From Arthrobacter sp. YN (GTDB lineage Bacteria > Actinomycetota > Actinomycetes > Actinomycetales > Micrococcaceae), in the NCBI RefSeq assembly GCF_002224285.1, contig NZ_CP022436.1, positions 3,968,001 through 4,032,000 on the forward strand: 64,000 bases of DNA, written 5' to 3'. The notes beneath the pieces were generated by a model that was given only the letters and a program-made list of their open reading frames with translations, was not told where the DNA came from and did no database searches. Each line of letters starts with the position of its first letter. Position 1 is the stretch's first letter. Made by a program: the position numbers and the translations under genes. Shown here in pieces: positions 4,145 through 13,062 of the stretch.

Positions 4145-4528
4145 CTAGGCCTCCACCAGCCACTCCAACGCCTCTGTTTCAGATGTGAAGAACTTAGTGG
4201 GGCACGGTGGCTTCATGATGCCCAGAAAAAAGTTGGCAATGACCCTGTCCACCGGAGATGAGCCCCAGAGCGCGATGCGGTTGGCCTGGCACGGTTTGGC
4301 AAACACGGAACGGGCACCCCGGGTGACATCATCCGTAGTGGCCATGTCCACGATCATTGGATGGCGTTCCTCGCCGCAGAGCTCGTTCACCCGGTCCATG
4401 GCCCGTTGGGCGTCAGGTTCCTTGATCCTTGCCCCGCGCGGCCACGTCAGGCGAAGAATGCCTGGTTCTTCGAGCTCCAGCTCGAACGTCACCTGTTGAT
4501 GGTCCTGCGGTGTTGCTGGGTGGTCCAC
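4145..4528 (-). CDS. STAS/SpoIIAA-like protein (DUF7793 type)
   Basis: A soluble protein of about 127 residues. The pattern of a short beta-strand start (GILRLTWPRGARI), a helix with AMDRVNEL, the strand PMIVDMATTD, and the closing GSSPVDRVIANFFLG and FTSETEALEWL is that of the actinobacterial STAS-like DUF7793 group, whose members often sit beside sensor kinases. The function is unknown; members are thought to be regulatory or protein-binding. The GTG start at 4528 is preferred because AAGGAG lies 4 nt before it; the longer frame to 4606 has no such site. Transcribed away from the histidine kinase at 4736. Confidence 0.7.
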   Translation of the reverse strand: MDHPATPQDHQQVTFELELEEPGILRLTWPRGARIKEPDAQRAMDRVNELCGEERHPMIVDMATTDDVTRGARSVFAKPCQANRIALWGSSPVDRVIANFFLGIMKPPCPTKFFTSETEALEWLVEA

Positions 4529-4735
4529 AGTGCTCCTTGCGCGGTTGGTGCTGCTGCAGCGGTTACCTCTGCTGACATCCTCAAGGCTGTCGAATCCCAA
4601 GGGCAAAGTAAAGGTGTGTCCCAGGACTCATCCACCCCATTTGACGCATGGTCACCTTTGGCCGCAATGCCGCTGATAGGGTGTTGCCACATCATGAAAA
4701 CACCGTGAATGAACCGTTGGAACGGAAGGGGCTCA

Positions 4736-6373
4736 GTGGGCGAGACCGTTGCCGACGTACAGCATGCCCGCTCCGCCGTAGTGGCGGATTCAGACAAGGA
4801 CCGTTTGGCCGCGACGACGGCCGCCCTTGCCGCAGCGGGATTCAACGTTTTCCCTGCCGTGGATGCCGCGGCCCTGGCCGCCCATCTCCAGCACCGCACC
4901 CCCTCGGTAGCGGTAGCTGAGAGTTCCCTGGCATACGGACTGCGCAGCCCCGGGGTTCCGATGCTGCTGATCCTTGCCTCCTTGGAATCCCTGGACCTCC
5001 AGGAAGTGGAATCCTGGCGCGTAGCGGACTACGTCATCAGCCCCGTGCGATCCGGGGAACTGGTCCACCGGGTTGAAACCCTGATCGGCCGGGCTGCCGA
5101 ACGCGCGCGTTCACGCGGCGAAATCGAAGCACTGCGCGAAAGCCTCCGCAATGTCTCCTCGGCGATCCGGGAGACCAACGATCCCCAACTGATCTCAGAC
5201 CACGTGGTGCGTGGCTTCGGTGAGGCGCTGGACGTGGACCACGTCTGGTTTGCCACCTTCCGCGACGAACGTGTTCCCAGCATTCGTGCACAGTGGAACC
5301 GTCCCGGCCTTCCGCTGCTTCCCGCGAGGCTGGGTGAGAGCGAAAACGCCATTATCGAGGCCGCCAACAGGCTGTGGGCGGATGCGGATGTCCTGGCAGT
5401 CGCGGACCACCGCGAAGACCCCGACTCCAGGATCGCCAAGGCCCTGCGGGAGTGGTCCGGCGAGCTCGACCCTGTGTCCACCGTCCTTCTCCCAGTGGGT
5501 GAGGGAGCAACCGCGATGGGCATCATCCTGCTCTCCACCGTCCAGGAACGGCACGATTGGACCCGTCCCGAGATCGCGTTGATGCAACACGTGGCCGGGA
5601 ACGTGGCCCACGGGCTCATCCAGGGCCACCTCATCAGTGCCCAACAGCGGGTGCTGCACCAGCTAAGGCAGTTGGACAAGGCCAAAACCGATTTCCTGGC
5701 CACGGTCAACCATGAACTCCGGACACCGCTGACCTCCATCACCGCCTATCTGGACATGATCCAGGACGGATCCGGCGGGCCGGTTCCCGACGGTATCCGG
5801 AAGATGCTGGACGTCATCGCCCGGAACTCCACCCGCCTCCGCAGGCTCATCGAGGACATGCTTACCGTGTCCATGCAGGACGGCAGCAACCTGGACCTCA
5901 AACCGGTGGATATTGCCAAGCTCCTGCAGGTGGTGGTGGCCACGCTTCGGCCACTGGCAGAGTCCCGCCACGTCTCGTTGTCCTTCACCGAGGGGACTGA
6001 CGACATCGAGGTCACGGCCGACGAAGCGAAGCTGGAACAGGTGTTCACCAACATCGTGGCCAACGCCATCAAGTTCACACCCGAGGGCGGCAGGGTGGGC
6101 ATCACCAGTTCGGTCTCGGACTCGGAGGGCGGCGGGCTGGCGCTGGTAGAGATCGCAGACAACGGCCTGGGCATCCCCGAGCACGATCTCCCCCACATCT
6201 TCACCCGCTTCTACCGGGCCTCCAATGCCACGTCAGCAGCGGTCCCCGGCAGTGGGCTTGGACTGGCGATTGCGCACGACATCATCAGCCGCCACATGGG
6301 CCGCCTCCTGCTGGATTCCACCCTCGGGGCCGGCACCACGGTATCCGTGGAGTTGCCGGTGGGCGGGCCGTAG
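4736..6373 (+). CDS. Sensor histidine kinase with degenerate receiver and GAF domains
   Basis: A soluble hybrid kinase of about 545 residues. In order: a receiver-like domain (first 120 residues), a GAF-like domain (about 140-300), HisKA with the phospho-acceptor His in FLATVNHELRTPL (codon 5711), and HATPase with FTNIVANAIKFTPEGG (N box), DNGLGI (G1) and GSGLGLAIAH (G2). The receiver lacks the usual phospho-Asp (VAVAES) and the conserved Lys (YVISPV), so it is probably a binding or dimerisation module. No membrane segment is seen, so the signal is intracellular or partner-borne. GTG at 4736 follows GGAAGGGG; the in-frame ATG at 4709 is an alternative. No cognate response regulator is adjacent. 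Confidence 0.85.
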   Translation: MGETVADVQHARSAVVADSDKDRLAATTAALAAAGFNVFPAVDAAALAAHLQHRTPSVAVAESSLAYGLRSPGVPMLLILASLESLDLQEVESWRVADYVISPVRSGELVHRVETLIGRAAERARSRGEIEALRESLRNVSSAIRETNDPQLISDHVVRGFGEALDVDHVWFATFRDERVPSIRAQWNRPGLPLLPARLGESENAIIEAANRLWADADVLAVADHREDPDSRIAKALREWSGELDPVSTVLLPVGEGATAMGIILLSTVQERHDWTRPEIALMQHVAGNVAHGLIQGHLISAQQRVLHQLRQLDKAKTDFLATVNHELRTPLTSITAYLDMIQDGSGGPVPDGIRKMLDVIARNSTRLRRLIEDMLTVSMQDGSNLDLKPVDIAKLLQVVVATLRPLAESRHVSLSFTEGTDDIEVTADEAKLEQVFTNIVANAIKFTPEGGRVGITSSVSDSEGGGLALVEIADNGLGIPEHDLPHIFTRFYRASNATSAAVPGSGLGLAIAHDIISRHMGRLLLDSTLGAGTTVSVELPVGGP

Positions 6374-6462: not shown

Positions 6463-6498
6463 AATTGATGCCCCGGGCAGCAACCCGGGGCATCAATT
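6463..6498 (-). terminator. Intrinsic terminator of the small peptide gene
   Basis: Arms 6463-6477 and 6484-6498 form a perfect 15-bp GC-rich stem with a 6-nt loop. Read on the minus strand the stem is followed by a U-rich run (TTTTGTTT), so it should end the transcript of the peptide gene whose stop lies 35 bp upstream. It would also block reading into the kinase gene. Confidence 0.8.
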
Positions 6499-6532: not shown

Positions 6533-6703
6533 TTAGTTTGGCCACCAACCGATGCTGGTGGTGTTCGTCTTCGTGGCGGTGTAGCTGTTAGGCCACCAGC
6601 CGATTGCCGTGCTGTCTTGCGTAGGCTCGGCATTAGCTGGGGCAGCGAAACCCGTTACTGCCAGAACCGCCGCCATGAGCAGGGTTGCCGCAAATTTTTT
6701 CAT
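6533..6703 (-). CDS. Small secreted peptide with two IGWWPN motifs
   Basis: A 56-residue protein. It has a classic Sec signal peptide: Lys-Lys at positions 2-3, a hydrophobic core to about residue 20, and APANA before a likely cut after residue 25. The predicted mature part is only 31 residues and contains IGWWPN twice, at 34-39 and as the last six residues 51-56, joined by a Thr/Ser/Asn-rich stretch. There are no cysteines. AAAGGG sits 8 nt before the ATG, and an intrinsic terminator follows, so it looks like a real, independently expressed gene. It is divergent from a TPR protein gene 93 bp away. I do not recognise a family. The exported short product with a repeated C-terminal hexapeptide resembles pheromone precursors, which is inference only. 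Confidence 0.8.
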   Translation of the reverse strand: MKKFAATLLMAAVLAVTGFAAPANAEPTQDSTAIGWWPNSYTATKTNTTSIGWWPN

Positions 6704-6741
6704 CCGCTATGCCCTTTCGTACTGATGCGAATTTGTTGTCT

Positions 6742-6775
6742 GTGACTTGAATAAAGTCACGGTGCAAACTATACG
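6742..6775 (+). promoter_or_regulatory. Promoter and inverted repeat between peptide and TPR genes
   Basis: A perfect 7-bp inverted repeat GTGACTT/AAGTCAC (6742-6748, 6754-6760) with a 5-bp spacer overlaps a promoter for the rightward TPR gene: TTGAAT (6747-6752), 17 bp, TATACG (6770-6775). It lies centrally between the divergent genes and is a plausible operator for one or both. Confidence 0.5.
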
Positions 6776-6795
6776 AGCTTTTCTTCCCTAATGAC

Positions 6796-7863
6796 ATGGA
6801 TAATGGGCTCATGCAAAGTCCGCACCTCGCCTCCCACTTCGTTGCCGGTCTCACGGCACGCGCCAAGTGGAAGGAACGGGACTTCGACGAGGCCTACCGC
6901 CTGGCCGTAGAGGCTGCCGGACTGTCCACCGCCGCCGGAGATGACGAGTCCTGGTGGAACATGCGTTACCTTCAAGCGGAGTGCCTCCGGGACCAAGGCC
7001 GCATTGAGGAATACCTCAACGTCGCCATGGAACTCAACGATCACAGCCTGACCGCCTCCTCGGCCGAGCTCGGGGCCAAAGCAGGAACCATGGTTGCCGT
7101 AGCATTCCAAGGCCTGGGCAGGCTCCCCGAAGCTGCCACCATGGCTGCGGAGGCGGCCAAACTTGCGGCCGGAGATGCCGAATTGCTGTACGTTCAGATC
7201 CTCGCCCAGCGCGCCCTGATCGCTGCATTGGCGGAGAGCCGGCTCCTGGACGATGCCTGGCGCGAATGCCTCGTCCTGGAAACCCTGCTGACCGACGACG
7301 TCGATGAAGACACTGCCGGCAAAGGTTATTGGGTGATTGGCAACGTTGCATTCCTTGCCAATCGTGTTGCCGACGGCGGCCGCTACCACGATCTCGCGGC
7401 CGAACGGCTTTCACCGTCCAAAGACGTTGATTTGTGGGCACGGTTCAACAGGGCATCAGCGGAAATGCGCCTGCAGGCAAAACTCAGGGATCCTGCAACC
7501 CTCCGCTGCATTGAAAGGGCAGAGCTCGCCACGGACATTGTGGGCGGCTCCGAGCGGGACCACCTGGAAATGTCGCTGGTCCGCGCCCACTGGTATTTTC
7601 TCAGCGATGATATGCAGCAAGCCGCCGCGATCCTGGAACCCCTGTGCGCCCGCTCCACCATTCTGGCCACACAAACCTCGGCGGAAGCACATTTCCTTTT
7701 AGCCCGGACCCTGCTTGAATCCGATCGACGGCAGGATGCACTGGTGACGTTCGAAAAAGCTGCCATGCTGTTCGAACAGGCAGCATTGCCCGAACGCAGC
7801 GCAGCCGTTCGGGAGTACCTTCGCCACAGCGATGAACAACGAGGCGGGCCACACGGGGGGTGA
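6796..7863 (+). CDS. Helical-repeat (TPR-like) protein, 355 residues
   Basis: All-helical from end to end, with repeated AxxLxxxGRxxEA-type pairs that match tetratricopeptide repeats, for example ARAKWKERDFDEAYRLA, LQAECLRDQGRIEEYL, AFQGLGRLPEAATMA and LLARTLLESDRRQDALVTFEKA. No HTH, kinase or membrane segment is seen. Length and architecture resemble Rap-type TPR proteins that bind short peptides, but no specific family is recognised. The last codon overlaps the GGDEF-EAL gene (GTGA), so the two are translationally coupled and probably act together. The ATG at 6796 has no clear ribosome site; ATG at 6811 is an alternative. It is divergent from the small secreted peptide gene. The functional link to the peptide is inferred from position only. 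Confidence 0.75.
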   Translation: MDNGLMQSPHLASHFVAGLTARAKWKERDFDEAYRLAVEAAGLSTAAGDDESWWNMRYLQAECLRDQGRIEEYLNVAMELNDHSLTASSAELGAKAGTMVAVAFQGLGRLPEAATMAAEAAKLAAGDAELLYVQILAQRALIAALAESRLLDDAWRECLVLETLLTDDVDEDTAGKGYWVIGNVAFLANRVADGGRYHDLAAERLSPSKDVDLWARFNRASAEMRLQAKLRDPATLRCIERAELATDIVGGSERDHLEMSLVRAHWYFLSDDMQQAAAILEPLCARSTILATQTSAEAHFLLARTLLESDRRQDALVTFEKAAMLFEQAALPERSAAVREYLRHSDEQRGGPHGG

Positions 7864-9419
7864 GCATGTCCGAAGGGAAAATGTACTCCGGCAACGACCC
7901 GCGCCTTGGGCTGCTCCTGGACGGAATCGTCAGGTTGGCCGCCGGGGATCTCAACACCAGAATCGAAGTCTCAGAGGCACGGGACGAAATCGACGCCGTG
8001 ATCATGGGCACCAACCTCCTGGCGGAGGATCTCCAGATCATTTACGCAGAGTTGGAGCAACGGGTGCGGGCCCGTACCCAGCAGCTCAACGAAGCCCACC
8101 TGGCGATGCAGCACATGGCCATGACCGATCCCCTCACAGGCCTGAACAACCGCTCAGCATTTGCCACGGCACTCAGCGAAGCCCAGGCCAGTGGGGCGCA
8201 GAGCGGCCGAAAGGCAGCCATCCTCCTCCTGGACATGGACGGGTTCAAAGCGATCAACGACTCTCTGGGGCACACCATCGGGGACAAGGTCCTGGAAACG
8301 GTGGCCAATCGGATCACCGGCGCCGTGCGCGATCAGGACATGGTGGCCCGCATGGGCGGCGACGAATTCGCGGTGCTGATCCCCGACGTGACTCCCGCTA
8401 TCGCCGCTTCCATCGGCAACCGCATCCTTGCCGCAGTGGTGGGCGTCATGGAGATTGAGGGCCAGCACCTGCGTTGCGGTGCCAGCATGGGCCTCCGGAT
8501 GGCCGATCCCGGCCACCGCGCGGAGGAACTGATGATGGAAGCGGACATCGCCATGTACGAGTCCAAGGCTGACGGGCGCGGCAAGCTCAAGGTCTTCGAA
8601 CCCGCCATGCTGCACGCCCGGCAGATGAGGAACCAGCTGGTGGGCGAACTCAAGGAAGCGATCACCGGCTCGCAGCTGATGCTCTACTATCAGCCGATCA
8701 TCCGGTTGGATACCCGCGAAATCGAAGGCGTGGAGGCGTTGGTCCGCTGGAACCACCCCACCCGCGGACTCGTCATGCCGGACGAGTTCATCCCCATTGC
8801 CGAGGAAACGGGAATGATTTCCGATCTGGGCGGCTGGGTGCTCCGCACCGCCGTCGGGCAGTTGAAGCAATGGCGCACCGACCCCCTCACGTCGGGCCAC
8901 AACTTCAGCATGCGAATCAACGTTTCGGCGGCGGATCTACAGCGGCTGGAGTTTATTGAAGACGTCCGGGAGGCTTTGGCTTCGGCTGAGTTGGACCCGT
9001 CACTCCTGGTCCTGGAACTGACCGAGAGCGCAGTCATTCAAGGCAATGACTTGGACCGCTACACGCTCAACAGCCTGCGCCGACTGGGCGTGGGACTGGA
9101 AATCGACGACTTTGGCACCGGCTACTCATCCATCAGCTACCTGCGCCAGCTTCCGGTGGACACCGTCAAAGTGGACCGGACCCTGCTCTCAGCACTGGGC
9201 AGCGACCCCTTGCAACCCGCACTGCTGGCCGCCGTGCTGCAGTTGATCCGGGCTTGCGGGTTGGCTGCGGTGTGGGAAGGCGTCGAAAGTGCCGAGCAAG
9301 CCGAATATCTCCTCAGCATCGGGTGCACCAGCGGCCAAGGGTACTACTTCAGCAGGCCACTGCCTGAAGAGCAGCTGACCGAACAGCTGAAGCACCACAA
9401 GACGTGGCCCGTCAGTTGA
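7860..9419 (+). CDS. Bifunctional-type c-di-GMP enzyme, GGDEF-EAL
   Basis: Makes and/or degrades cyclic di-GMP in the cytosol. Residues 15-60 look like a soluble HAMP-type segment (RLAAGDLNTRI), followed by a coiled coil and then GGDEF. The catalytic motif GGDEF (166-170) is intact and preceded by an RDQD inhibitory site. The EAL domain begins at EALVRW (292) and keeps the acidic and lysine residues expected for activity: ELTES, DDFGTGYSS, VKVDRT and WEGVES. Both activities therefore look possible. There is no membrane segment, so the sensing partner is probably the TPR protein encoded immediately upstream, with which it shares a GTGA overlap. ATG at 7866 is an alternative start. Its 3' end overlaps the convergent acetyltransferase gene by 8 bp. 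Confidence 0.9.
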   Translation: MSMSEGKMYSGNDPRLGLLLDGIVRLAAGDLNTRIEVSEARDEIDAVIMGTNLLAEDLQIIYAELEQRVRARTQQLNEAHLAMQHMAMTDPLTGLNNRSAFATALSEAQASGAQSGRKAAILLLDMDGFKAINDSLGHTIGDKVLETVANRITGAVRDQDMVARMGGDEFAVLIPDVTPAIAASIGNRILAAVVGVMEIEGQHLRCGASMGLRMADPGHRAEELMMEADIAMYESKADGRGKLKVFEPAMLHARQMRNQLVGELKEAITGSQLMLYYQPIIRLDTREIEGVEALVRWNHPTRGLVMPDEFIPIAEETGMISDLGGWVLRTAVGQLKQWRTDPLTSGHNFSMRINVSAADLQRLEFIEDVREALASAELDPSLLVLELTESAVIQGNDLDRYTLNSLRRLGVGLEIDDFGTGYSSISYLRQLPVDTVKVDRTLLSALGSDPLQPALLAAVLQLIRACGLAAVWEGVESAEQAEYLLSIGCTSGQGYYFSRPLPEEQLTEQLKHHKTWPVS

Positions 9420-11951: not shown

Positions 11952-12554
11952 ATGCCTACTGAGACCACCACCAAGCGCGGACGGCCCGGTTACGACCAGC
12001 AGTCGGTGCTCCGCATCGCCGTCGACGTCTTCAACCGCCACGGGTACGACGCTACGTCCATGGGCATCCTGGCCGAGAACCTCGGGATCTCGAAGTCAGC
12101 CATTTACCACCACGTGCCGTCCAAGGGCGATCTGCTGAAGCTCGCCCTGGACCACGCGTTGGGCGGCCTTGAGGCCATCCTCGAGGAGCCTGCCGCCACC
12201 TCCGGGCCGGCCGACGCCCGGCTTGAGTTCGTGCTGCGGCAGACCATCGCTGTGCTGGTGGACCGGCTGCCCTTCGTCACACTTCTCCTGCGCCTCCGAG
12301 GCAACACGGAGATTGAGCGGGACGCCCTGGAACGCCGCCGCGCGTTCGACCACAAGGTAGCCGAACTCATCTCTGCGGCCCGCGAGGACGGTTCCCTGCG
12401 GCAGGACATCGATCCCCGCACCGTGACGCGCCTGCTGTTCGGCACTATCAACTCGATCGTGGAATGGTACAAGCCGGGCGGCTCGCTGTCCCCTGAGAAG
12501 CTCGCGGACGACGTCATCACCATGGCCTTCGACGGCCTCCACACGGCCGCCTGA
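11952..12554 (+). CDS. TetR-family repressor, probably of the phenylacetate genes (PaaR-like)
   Basis: Two hundred residues. The N-terminal DNA-binding domain is clear: VLRIAVDVFNRHGYDATSMGILAENLGISKSAIYHHVPSKGDLL. The C-terminal helices would bind the inducer, expected to be phenylacetyl-CoA by analogy with PaaR of corynebacteria. It follows paaK by 30 bp and probably controls the palindromes before paaI, paaZ and paaJ. Its stop codon is followed directly by an array of 32-bp repeats. Confidence 0.82.
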   Translation: MPTETTTKRGRPGYDQQSVLRIAVDVFNRHGYDATSMGILAENLGISKSAIYHHVPSKGDLLKLALDHALGGLEAILEEPAATSGPADARLEFVLRQTIAVLVDRLPFVTLLLRLRGNTEIERDALERRRAFDHKVAELISAAREDGSLRQDIDPRTVTRLLFGTINSIVEWYKPGGSLSPEKLADDVITMAFDGLHTAA

Positions 12555-12827
12555 CCCTCTCGCACATCCCACGGGCTTCCGGCCGTCCCTGTCTCACATC
12601 CCACGCGCTTCCGGCCATCCCCCTCGCACATCCCACTGGCTTCCGGCCATCCCTCTCGCACATCCCACTGGCTTCCGGCCGTCCCTCTCTCACATCCCAC
12701 GCGCTTGAGTCGAACCCTCTCTCACCTCCCACGGGCCTCCGGCCATCCCTCTCGCACATCCCACGCGCTTCCGGCCGTCCCTCTCGCACATCCCACGGGC
12801 TTCCGGCCATCCCTCTCGCACATCCCA
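12555..12827. repeat. Tandem 32-bp repeat array after the TetR gene
   Basis: Eight full units of exactly 32 bp and one 17-bp partial unit start on the base after the TetR stop codon. Each unit has a conserved core CTCTCGCACATCCC followed by a GGGCTT-like part and then 8 variable bases (mostly CCGGCCAT or CCGGCCGT, once GAGTCGAA). A period of 32 changes reading frame at each unit, so the array is not coding. The same repeat, inverted, faces it at 12945-13062. Confidence 0.85.
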
Positions 12828-12913: not shown

Positions 12914-12944
12914 ATCGGTCGCCGGCGCATCGATTTCCATTTGA

Positions 12945-13062
12945 GCCCGCGGGATGTGAGAGAGGGACCCACTCAAGCCCGCGGGACGTGAGAGAGGGAC
13001 CCACTCAAGCCCGCGGGATGTGCGAGAGGGACCCACTCAAACCCGCGGGACGTGAGAGAGGG
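12945..13062. repeat. Inverted 32-bp repeat array after paaZ
   Basis: Three full 32-bp units and one 22-bp partial unit end on the base next to the paaZ stop codon (13063). Read on the paaZ strand each unit begins with the same core, CTCTC(G/T)CAC(A/G)TCCC, then GCGGGCTT, but the variable end is GAGTGGGT instead of CCGGCCAT. The array thus has the same orientation relative to paaZ as the other array has to the TetR gene. Confidence 0.85.

Follow-up and report, generated by a model that had tools for sequence, protein, structure and literature searches.

A candidate peptide-pheromone locus of Arthrobacter that may connect a TPR protein with a GGDEF-EAL enzyme

Does a small secreted peptide of an actinobacterium set the cyclic-di-GMP level of the cell by way of an intracellular receptor? 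This question is raised by a locus in the genome of Arthrobacter sp. YN, which lies in a stretch of 64,000 nucleotides (positions 3,968,001 to 4,032,000 of contig NZ_CP022436.1; hereafter the window, in whose numbering positions are given unless the contig is named). Here a gene for a 56-residue peptide precursor is divergent from a gene for a tetratricopeptide-repeat (TPR) protein, which overlaps a gene for a GGDEF-EAL enzyme. We regard it as probable that a pheromone precursor acts through the adjacent TPR protein on the GGDEF-EAL enzyme and hence on cyclic-di-GMP. In our best reading the locus belongs to a family of RRNPP-like peptide pheromones in Actinobacteria, in which one branch keeps a helix-turn-helix (HTH) domain, and the HTH-free branch found in the window probably acts through cyclic-di-GMP.

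The precursor gene and its divergent neighbours

The precursor gene (6533-6703, minus strand), recognized by reading of open reading frames (ORFs), pattern searches and homologues, encodes MKKFAATLLMAAVLAVTGFAAPANA followed by EPTQDSTAIGWWPNSYTATKTNTTSIGWWPN, the junction being the cleavage point as judged by eye. The lysine-led, hydrophobic Sec-type leader (residues 1-25; 6629-6703, minus strand), assigned by visual inspection and a hydropathy rule, ends in ANA, an AxA sequence before the predicted mature part of 31 residues, in which the hexapeptide IGWWPN occurs mid-way (6587-6604) and again at the very C-terminus (6536-6553), both on the minus strand. Across the 5.06-Mb genome a degenerate pattern for IGWWPN has two exact matches, both within this gene, and the reversed pattern used as a control has none. 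A GAAAGGG stretch lies upstream of the ATG, and beyond the stop codon there is a hairpin with perfect 11-bp arms (6467-6494, minus strand), whose far side, seen in the direction of the peptide gene, is rich in T and which can probably serve as the terminator of the peptide transcript. The gene described in the initial annotation, with a ribosome site, a terminator, a leader and a twin IGWWPN, is thereby borne out. Among 18 orthologues the linker varies and both hexapeptide copies change at synonymous sites only, and 73 of 73 protein homologues share the start of the leader and have a [IV]G[WS]WP motif at the C-terminus; because of these two patterns we take the ORF to be more than a chance reading frame.

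The TPR gene (6796-7863, plus strand; 355 residues) is separated from the peptide gene by 92 bp; its start may instead be the methionine at 6811, and several homologues are 350 residues long. Pfam detects no HTH domain in the protein. An AlphaFold model (pLDDT, the model's own confidence score, 94.4) has 17 long helices and one short one, that is 8-9 helix pairs, and its best matches among solved structures are TPR superhelices, so that the predicted fold agrees with the superhelix of 5-9 TPR repeats that characterizes RRNPP receptors. The grooves of TPR proteins often bind linear peptides, whose backbones are held by asparagines of the kind represented by N183 (helix 171-187) and N218 (helix 211-227), two of the near-invariant residues of this putative peptide receptor. 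The end of the TPR gene overlaps by 4 bp the GTG start of the enzyme gene (7860-9419, plus strand; 519 residues), whose product has an EAL domain (E=5e-70), a GGDEF domain (E=5.9e-42) and a weak HAMP-like region below the cut-off. Its GGDEF, RxxD I-site, EAL and DDFG motifs are all intact, as expected from the earlier description of an HTH-free TPR gene coupled to a complete GGDEF-EAL gene. Counted over all 72 BLAST-defined linked enzymes of the relatives described below, GGDEF, RxxD and DDFG are kept in 71, and the third motif reads EAL in 53 and EVL in 18; the enzyme ORF at L222 is short and lacks these motifs.

From these features we infer co-transcription of the TPR and enzyme genes, as well as maturation, re-import and binding of the peptide and the direction of cyclic-di-GMP control. 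The precursor would be exported by Sec and its leader taken off by signal peptidase, whereupon proteolysis would free a short Trp-Pro (W-P) peptide (IGWWPN, perhaps with some flanking residues). A peptide permease would then bring this peptide back into the cell, where the neighbouring TPR protein would bind it in its concave groove; binding would alter how this protein contacts the GGDEF-EAL enzyme encoded in its operon, and thereby the cyclic-di-GMP level of the cell. The genome contains 12 genes of the OppA type (SBP_bac_5).

Linkage in Arthrobacter and beyond

The linkage of the three genes was assessed in loci chosen by their TPR protein alone in a scan of genome contigs. The main set consists of the best 80 of 234 confirmed relatives, the more distant 154 standing outside this count; with one locus left out as its TPR gene runs off the contig (L232), it comprises 79 loci, nearly all of them from Arthrobacter or its near relatives. 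A secreted W-P peptide occupies the divergent slot in all 74 loci for which 2.6 kb or more of upstream sequence is available, 72 of them called by script and two by reading (L249, and L252, which a position filter had set aside). The initial annotation had named a regular lack of the peptide gene beside homologues of the TPR-GGDEF pair as grounds against its proposal, and such a lack was not observed in these loci. Among the five loci with less upstream DNA, two have the peptide by script (L178, L213), two offer too little DNA (L210, L219), and the fifth, L214, is weighed below. In this tally the leader was judged by the hydropathy rule and by eye. The detector gave nine matches elsewhere in all flanks together, of which three are genuine peptides, and a spurious second match inside the slot of L248. 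In a separate set of 20 hand-picked TPR loci, partly chosen for a known peptide match, the peptide is present in 20. An HTH domain called in L216 came from a looser rule, and the stricter rule finds none in the 79 loci. In one record of the main set (L215) the TPR/peptide/GGDEF-EAL locus is Arthrobacter-like, although the record bears the title Vibrio cholerae strain 35D; this is probably a mislabelled or contaminating contig.

A GGDEF-EAL gene is present in 72 of the 79 loci, and either this gene or a DUF7793/STAS gene in 78 (the exception is L225). In 53 loci the enzyme gene follows the TPR gene downstream, and in 19 it is placed beyond the peptide gene, upstream of it; the trio has therefore stayed together through a rearrangement. 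That we are looking at inherited gene order with no functional link is a reading which the narrow taxonomic range of the main set might invite, but the divergence of peptide and TPR genes is kept across both layouts, across two paralogous branches, in 13 other genera and in another family, and we give this explanation hardly any credence. In two loci tandem TPR copies are accompanied by different peptides, namely VGNWPDG and IDDWPH in L217 and SGNWPDS and IDDWPH in L220.

The second branch is represented in the same genome by a TPR relative (4142150-4143193 of the contig; 39% identity, 421 residues) with HTH_31/HTH_3 ahead of the TPRs. Divergent from it is a gene for a precursor with a leader, in which IGNWPDPM occurs and IGNWPDTM stands at the end; this arrangement strengthens the analogy with RRNPP systems drawn in the initial annotation. 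The peptide of this branch was found in 14 of 14 fetched loci in 2-4 copies, one of these loci (L117) having been fetched for a known peptide match, and 190 of 198 genomes of the genus contain the GNWPDP pattern, the reversed control being matched in 2 of 198. A GGDEF-EAL gene accompanies 88 of 109 HTH-free receptors and is found near none of the 20 HTH-bearing loci whose flanks reach 2.5 kb or more in both directions. Within the genus, then, paralogous receptors are paired with different units, of the GWWPN and GNWPDPM types respectively. These observations bear on the idea of a wall, adhesive or antimicrobial peptide whose production the TPR and GGDEF-EAL genes regulate. A Trp-Pro-rich, secreted and often multi-copy peptide would suit such a role, and surface traits are often under cyclic-di-GMP control; however, receptor groups have different units, the tiny mature part lacks cysteine and is not cationic, and the HTH-bearing receptors keep the arrangement in the absence of the enzyme, which makes this role improbable in our judgement.

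The family extends beyond the genus. In 60 genomes (58 from 31 other genera and two of the own genus) TPR relatives were matched in 30, representing 16 of the 32 genera with the own genus included. A divergent leader-bearing precursor is present in 23 of the 28 loci outside the own genus, from 13 of the 15 other genera with TPR relatives (L150 and L153 were completed from L171 and L172); no precursor was found at L136, L140, L141, L142 and L144, and at L142/L169 there is only a leaderless ORF ending in GIGDWPHAA. The precursors hold one to eight W-P units, often in tandem with variable spacers, such as VGDWPH (six copies in L139, and six with two of VGNWPH in L137), VGNWPDRF (four copies in L152 and eight in L172), FVGNWPDAV (five copies), NNNWPL (two copies), VNNWPG, VGYWPF, GGLWPY and more. 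When 156 distinct receptors were pooled, the script assigned a peptide to 141, to which L137 and L139 are added. A search of the order gave a match in 15 of 218 genomes, own genus and family included, and a profile search of 396 genomes of the phylum gave three with a match, the own one included, and added no further group. Outside the own family, L264, from another family of the order, clearly has an HTH-TPR gene with a divergent precursor containing three VGGSWP repeats; the W-P peptide of L265 is weak, and L266 and L277 are without one.

Leaderless short ORFs with two to five units were observed at L156-L164 and L107 (genomes G157, G158, G128, G151, G002, G115, G020 and G101), with units of the IGNWPDPM and IGWWPN types mixed in one chain at L161-L164 and L107. 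In L159, L161 and L165, the loci that were translated, a Pro-rich protein is encoded alongside, which starts like a leader and ends in residues similar to FDPGSSPD; in L165 the minimal form is MQNHIHSIGNWPDPM. Our judgement is evenly divided on a wider proposal, namely that the Micrococcaceae possess an overlooked pheromone family with a W-P core and variable flanks, in which HTH-TPR proteins with GNWPDPM would address transcription and HTH-free TPR proteins with GWWPN would address cyclic-di-GMP directly, both in one cell, and leaderless two-unit chains in some genomes could drive both channels together.

Comparison with known systems and points against the pheromone reading

Peptide signalling through imported peptides and TPR receptors has been described for Bacillota; there the Rap phosphatases have response regulators as their targets, and phr follows rap in the same orientation. 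The locus resembles the RRNPP/RRNPPA systems (Rap-Phr, PlcR-PapR, NprR, Rgg-SHP, PrgX, AimR) in that a small Sec-exported propeptide is encoded beside a cytosolic TPR receptor, the unit lies at the C-terminus and is sometimes multi-copy, and both HTH-bearing and HTH-free receptors occur. It differs in its presence in Actinobacteria rather than Bacillota, in its W-P peptides and in the GGDEF-EAL operon partner. No named RRNPP model in Pfam or NCBIfam matches either receptor, both giving only generic TPR/HTH or sub-cut-off matches. As regards the N-terminal three-helix bundle of Rap and NprR, RapI aligns as a whole to model residues 12-351 of the TPR protein. The N-terminal HTH of Rgg, NprR, PlcR, PrgX and AimR is missing from the protein of the window and present in the paralogue of the same genome. 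A further parallel is Rap-Phr, which likewise combines an HTH-free TPR receptor with an adjacent peptide gene and an output other than DNA binding by the receptor, whereas in the window the neighbour is a cyclic-di-GMP enzyme and the peptide gene is divergent. According to passages of the respective papers, some Phr precursors contain several units in tandem with variable spacers, with up to eight copies reported (PMC11343458), RRNPPA genes surveyed across Firmicutes turned up in several genera, of which a single one lies outside Bacilli (PMC9765709), and the signals of Actinomycetota are typically small molecules made by enzymes (PMC10075063). The abstract on rcbAB of Vibrio vulnificus describes a TPR protein that controls a diguanylate cyclase, the two being encoded in one operon of two genes (PMC12282931), which resembles the TPR gene and GGDEF gene of the window; there, however, the GGDEF protein itself has TPRs, and the abstract names neither an EAL domain nor a peptide gene, whereas the window enzyme consists of an N-terminal HAMP-like region, GGDEF and EAL only, without TPRs, and a divergent peptide gene is present. 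Among abstracts or passages of open-licence PMC papers we found no report of this system or of its motif letters.

We read the peptide as a pheromone because its unit is constant and its linker variable, the units occur in tandem, different receptors have different units, and tandem receptors are accompanied by different peptides. Several results weigh against this reading. In the solved-structure search Rap and NprR match the TPR model no better than unrelated TPR proteins do. The first TPR gene of L214 has no peptide in the 1,028 bp upstream, its tandem neighbour having one, and the invariance of W-P in the tally is in part a product of the detector, which demands these two residues. No peptide was found for ten of 47 HTH-bearing relatives (L166-L170, L266, L271, L275-L277), and when six no-match loci were reread, no other repeat-bearing secreted ORF was seen at L166-L168 and L170. 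Outside the own genus GNWPD units also occur at some HTH-free receptors, so that unit type does not map cleanly on the branch. The covariation of IGWWPN with TPR residues, which the initial annotation had proposed as a check, appeared as strong raw contrasts (receptor residue 147 with peptide position -2, and residue 224 with position -1), but these do not survive control for ancestry: on tree-independent pairs the former goes the same way in 1.6 of 7 and the latter in 5.5 of 8, and other columns do equally well, for which reason covariation was left out of the evidence. Two further adverse findings concern the precursors themselves, some of which are leaderless, with the same units, in certain genomes, and others of which are orphans that stand alone or adjoin a histidine kinase and a response regulator.

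The leaderless precursors raise the possibility that the unit is read inside the cell, and the TPR protein might then be a cytosolic chaperone or a sensor of the export status of its own precursor, with cyclic-di-GMP reporting secretion capacity and no signal passing between cells. The general affinity of TPR grooves for linear peptides would fit this role as well. On the other hand, a conserved unit placed C-terminally or in tandem after variable spacers would be an odd chaperone site, and the start of the leader is kept in every one of the 73 homologues; we hold this explanation to be unlikely, though it is the first to be set beside the pheromone reading. As to the orphans, the initial annotation had regarded conservation of the peptide in unrelated settings as evidence against the pairing. 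Such orphan precursors do exist, but the genomes supplying the leader-bearing ones each have at least two TPR-family matches, and the orphans may represent extra pheromone genes or point to a role of the kinase.

Neighbouring genes, candidate operators and meaning

Convergent with the peptide gene lies a gene for a GAF histidine kinase (4709-6373, plus strand), which all 34 of the closer loci (L176-L209) and also L174 possess, and which is found in none of the 45 loci of the range L210-L255 with flanks of up to 5 kb. Single-copy precursors of the IGWWPN/VGWWPN type stand beside a paralogue of this kinase, with no TPR gene, at L091, L093, L094 and L105; L091 additionally has a receiver-winged-helix regulator, and the thioesterase and PaaK-like neighbours of the window also occur at L091, L094 and L105. 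Both the constant adjacency in the closer loci and these orphans would suit a signal passing through the kinase in place of the TPR protein. Nevertheless, the TPR gene stays in the 45 loci from which the kinase is absent, and Pfam finds GAF, HisKA and HATPase as the only domains of the kinase above the cut-off, with no extracellular sensor domain; we consider this route very unlikely and retain the TPR protein as the candidate receptor.

Further along is a gene for a DUF7793/STAS-like protein (4145-4606, minus strand). In many relatives a DUF7793 paralogue is placed between the TPR and GGDEF-EAL genes, and two proteins (P0107, L195) are TPR-DUF7793 fusions; DUF7793 may be a relay between receptor and enzyme. 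Between the divergent genes of the window the inverted repeat GTGACTT-N5-AAGTCAC (6742-6760) forms a candidate operator, which occurs in 17 of 81 sequences scanned, namely in the window together with its 16 closest loci (L176-L191). In a comparison for an operator common to both receptors it was not seen in eight promoters of HTH-TPR paralogues. These eight share another conserved stretch, like TTGACAnACATTGTAAAATG...TGTCAAG, between the peptide and HTH-TPR genes (L110-L125), which is a candidate autoregulatory operator. Elsewhere in the window two arrays of 32-bp tandem repeats (12555-12827 with 8.5 copies and 12944-13062 with 3.7 copies) lie just after an ORF at 11952-12554.

The locus may define a so far undescribed route by which the peptide of one cell sets the lifestyle switch of another, and a direct path from peptide to cyclic-di-GMP would join two fields of signalling. 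Each receptor-peptide pair supplies a short candidate ligand that is open to synthesis and testing. If the proposal is true, an Actinobacterial family of receptors and peptides with many divergent pairs would open peptide quorum sensing in these bacteria.

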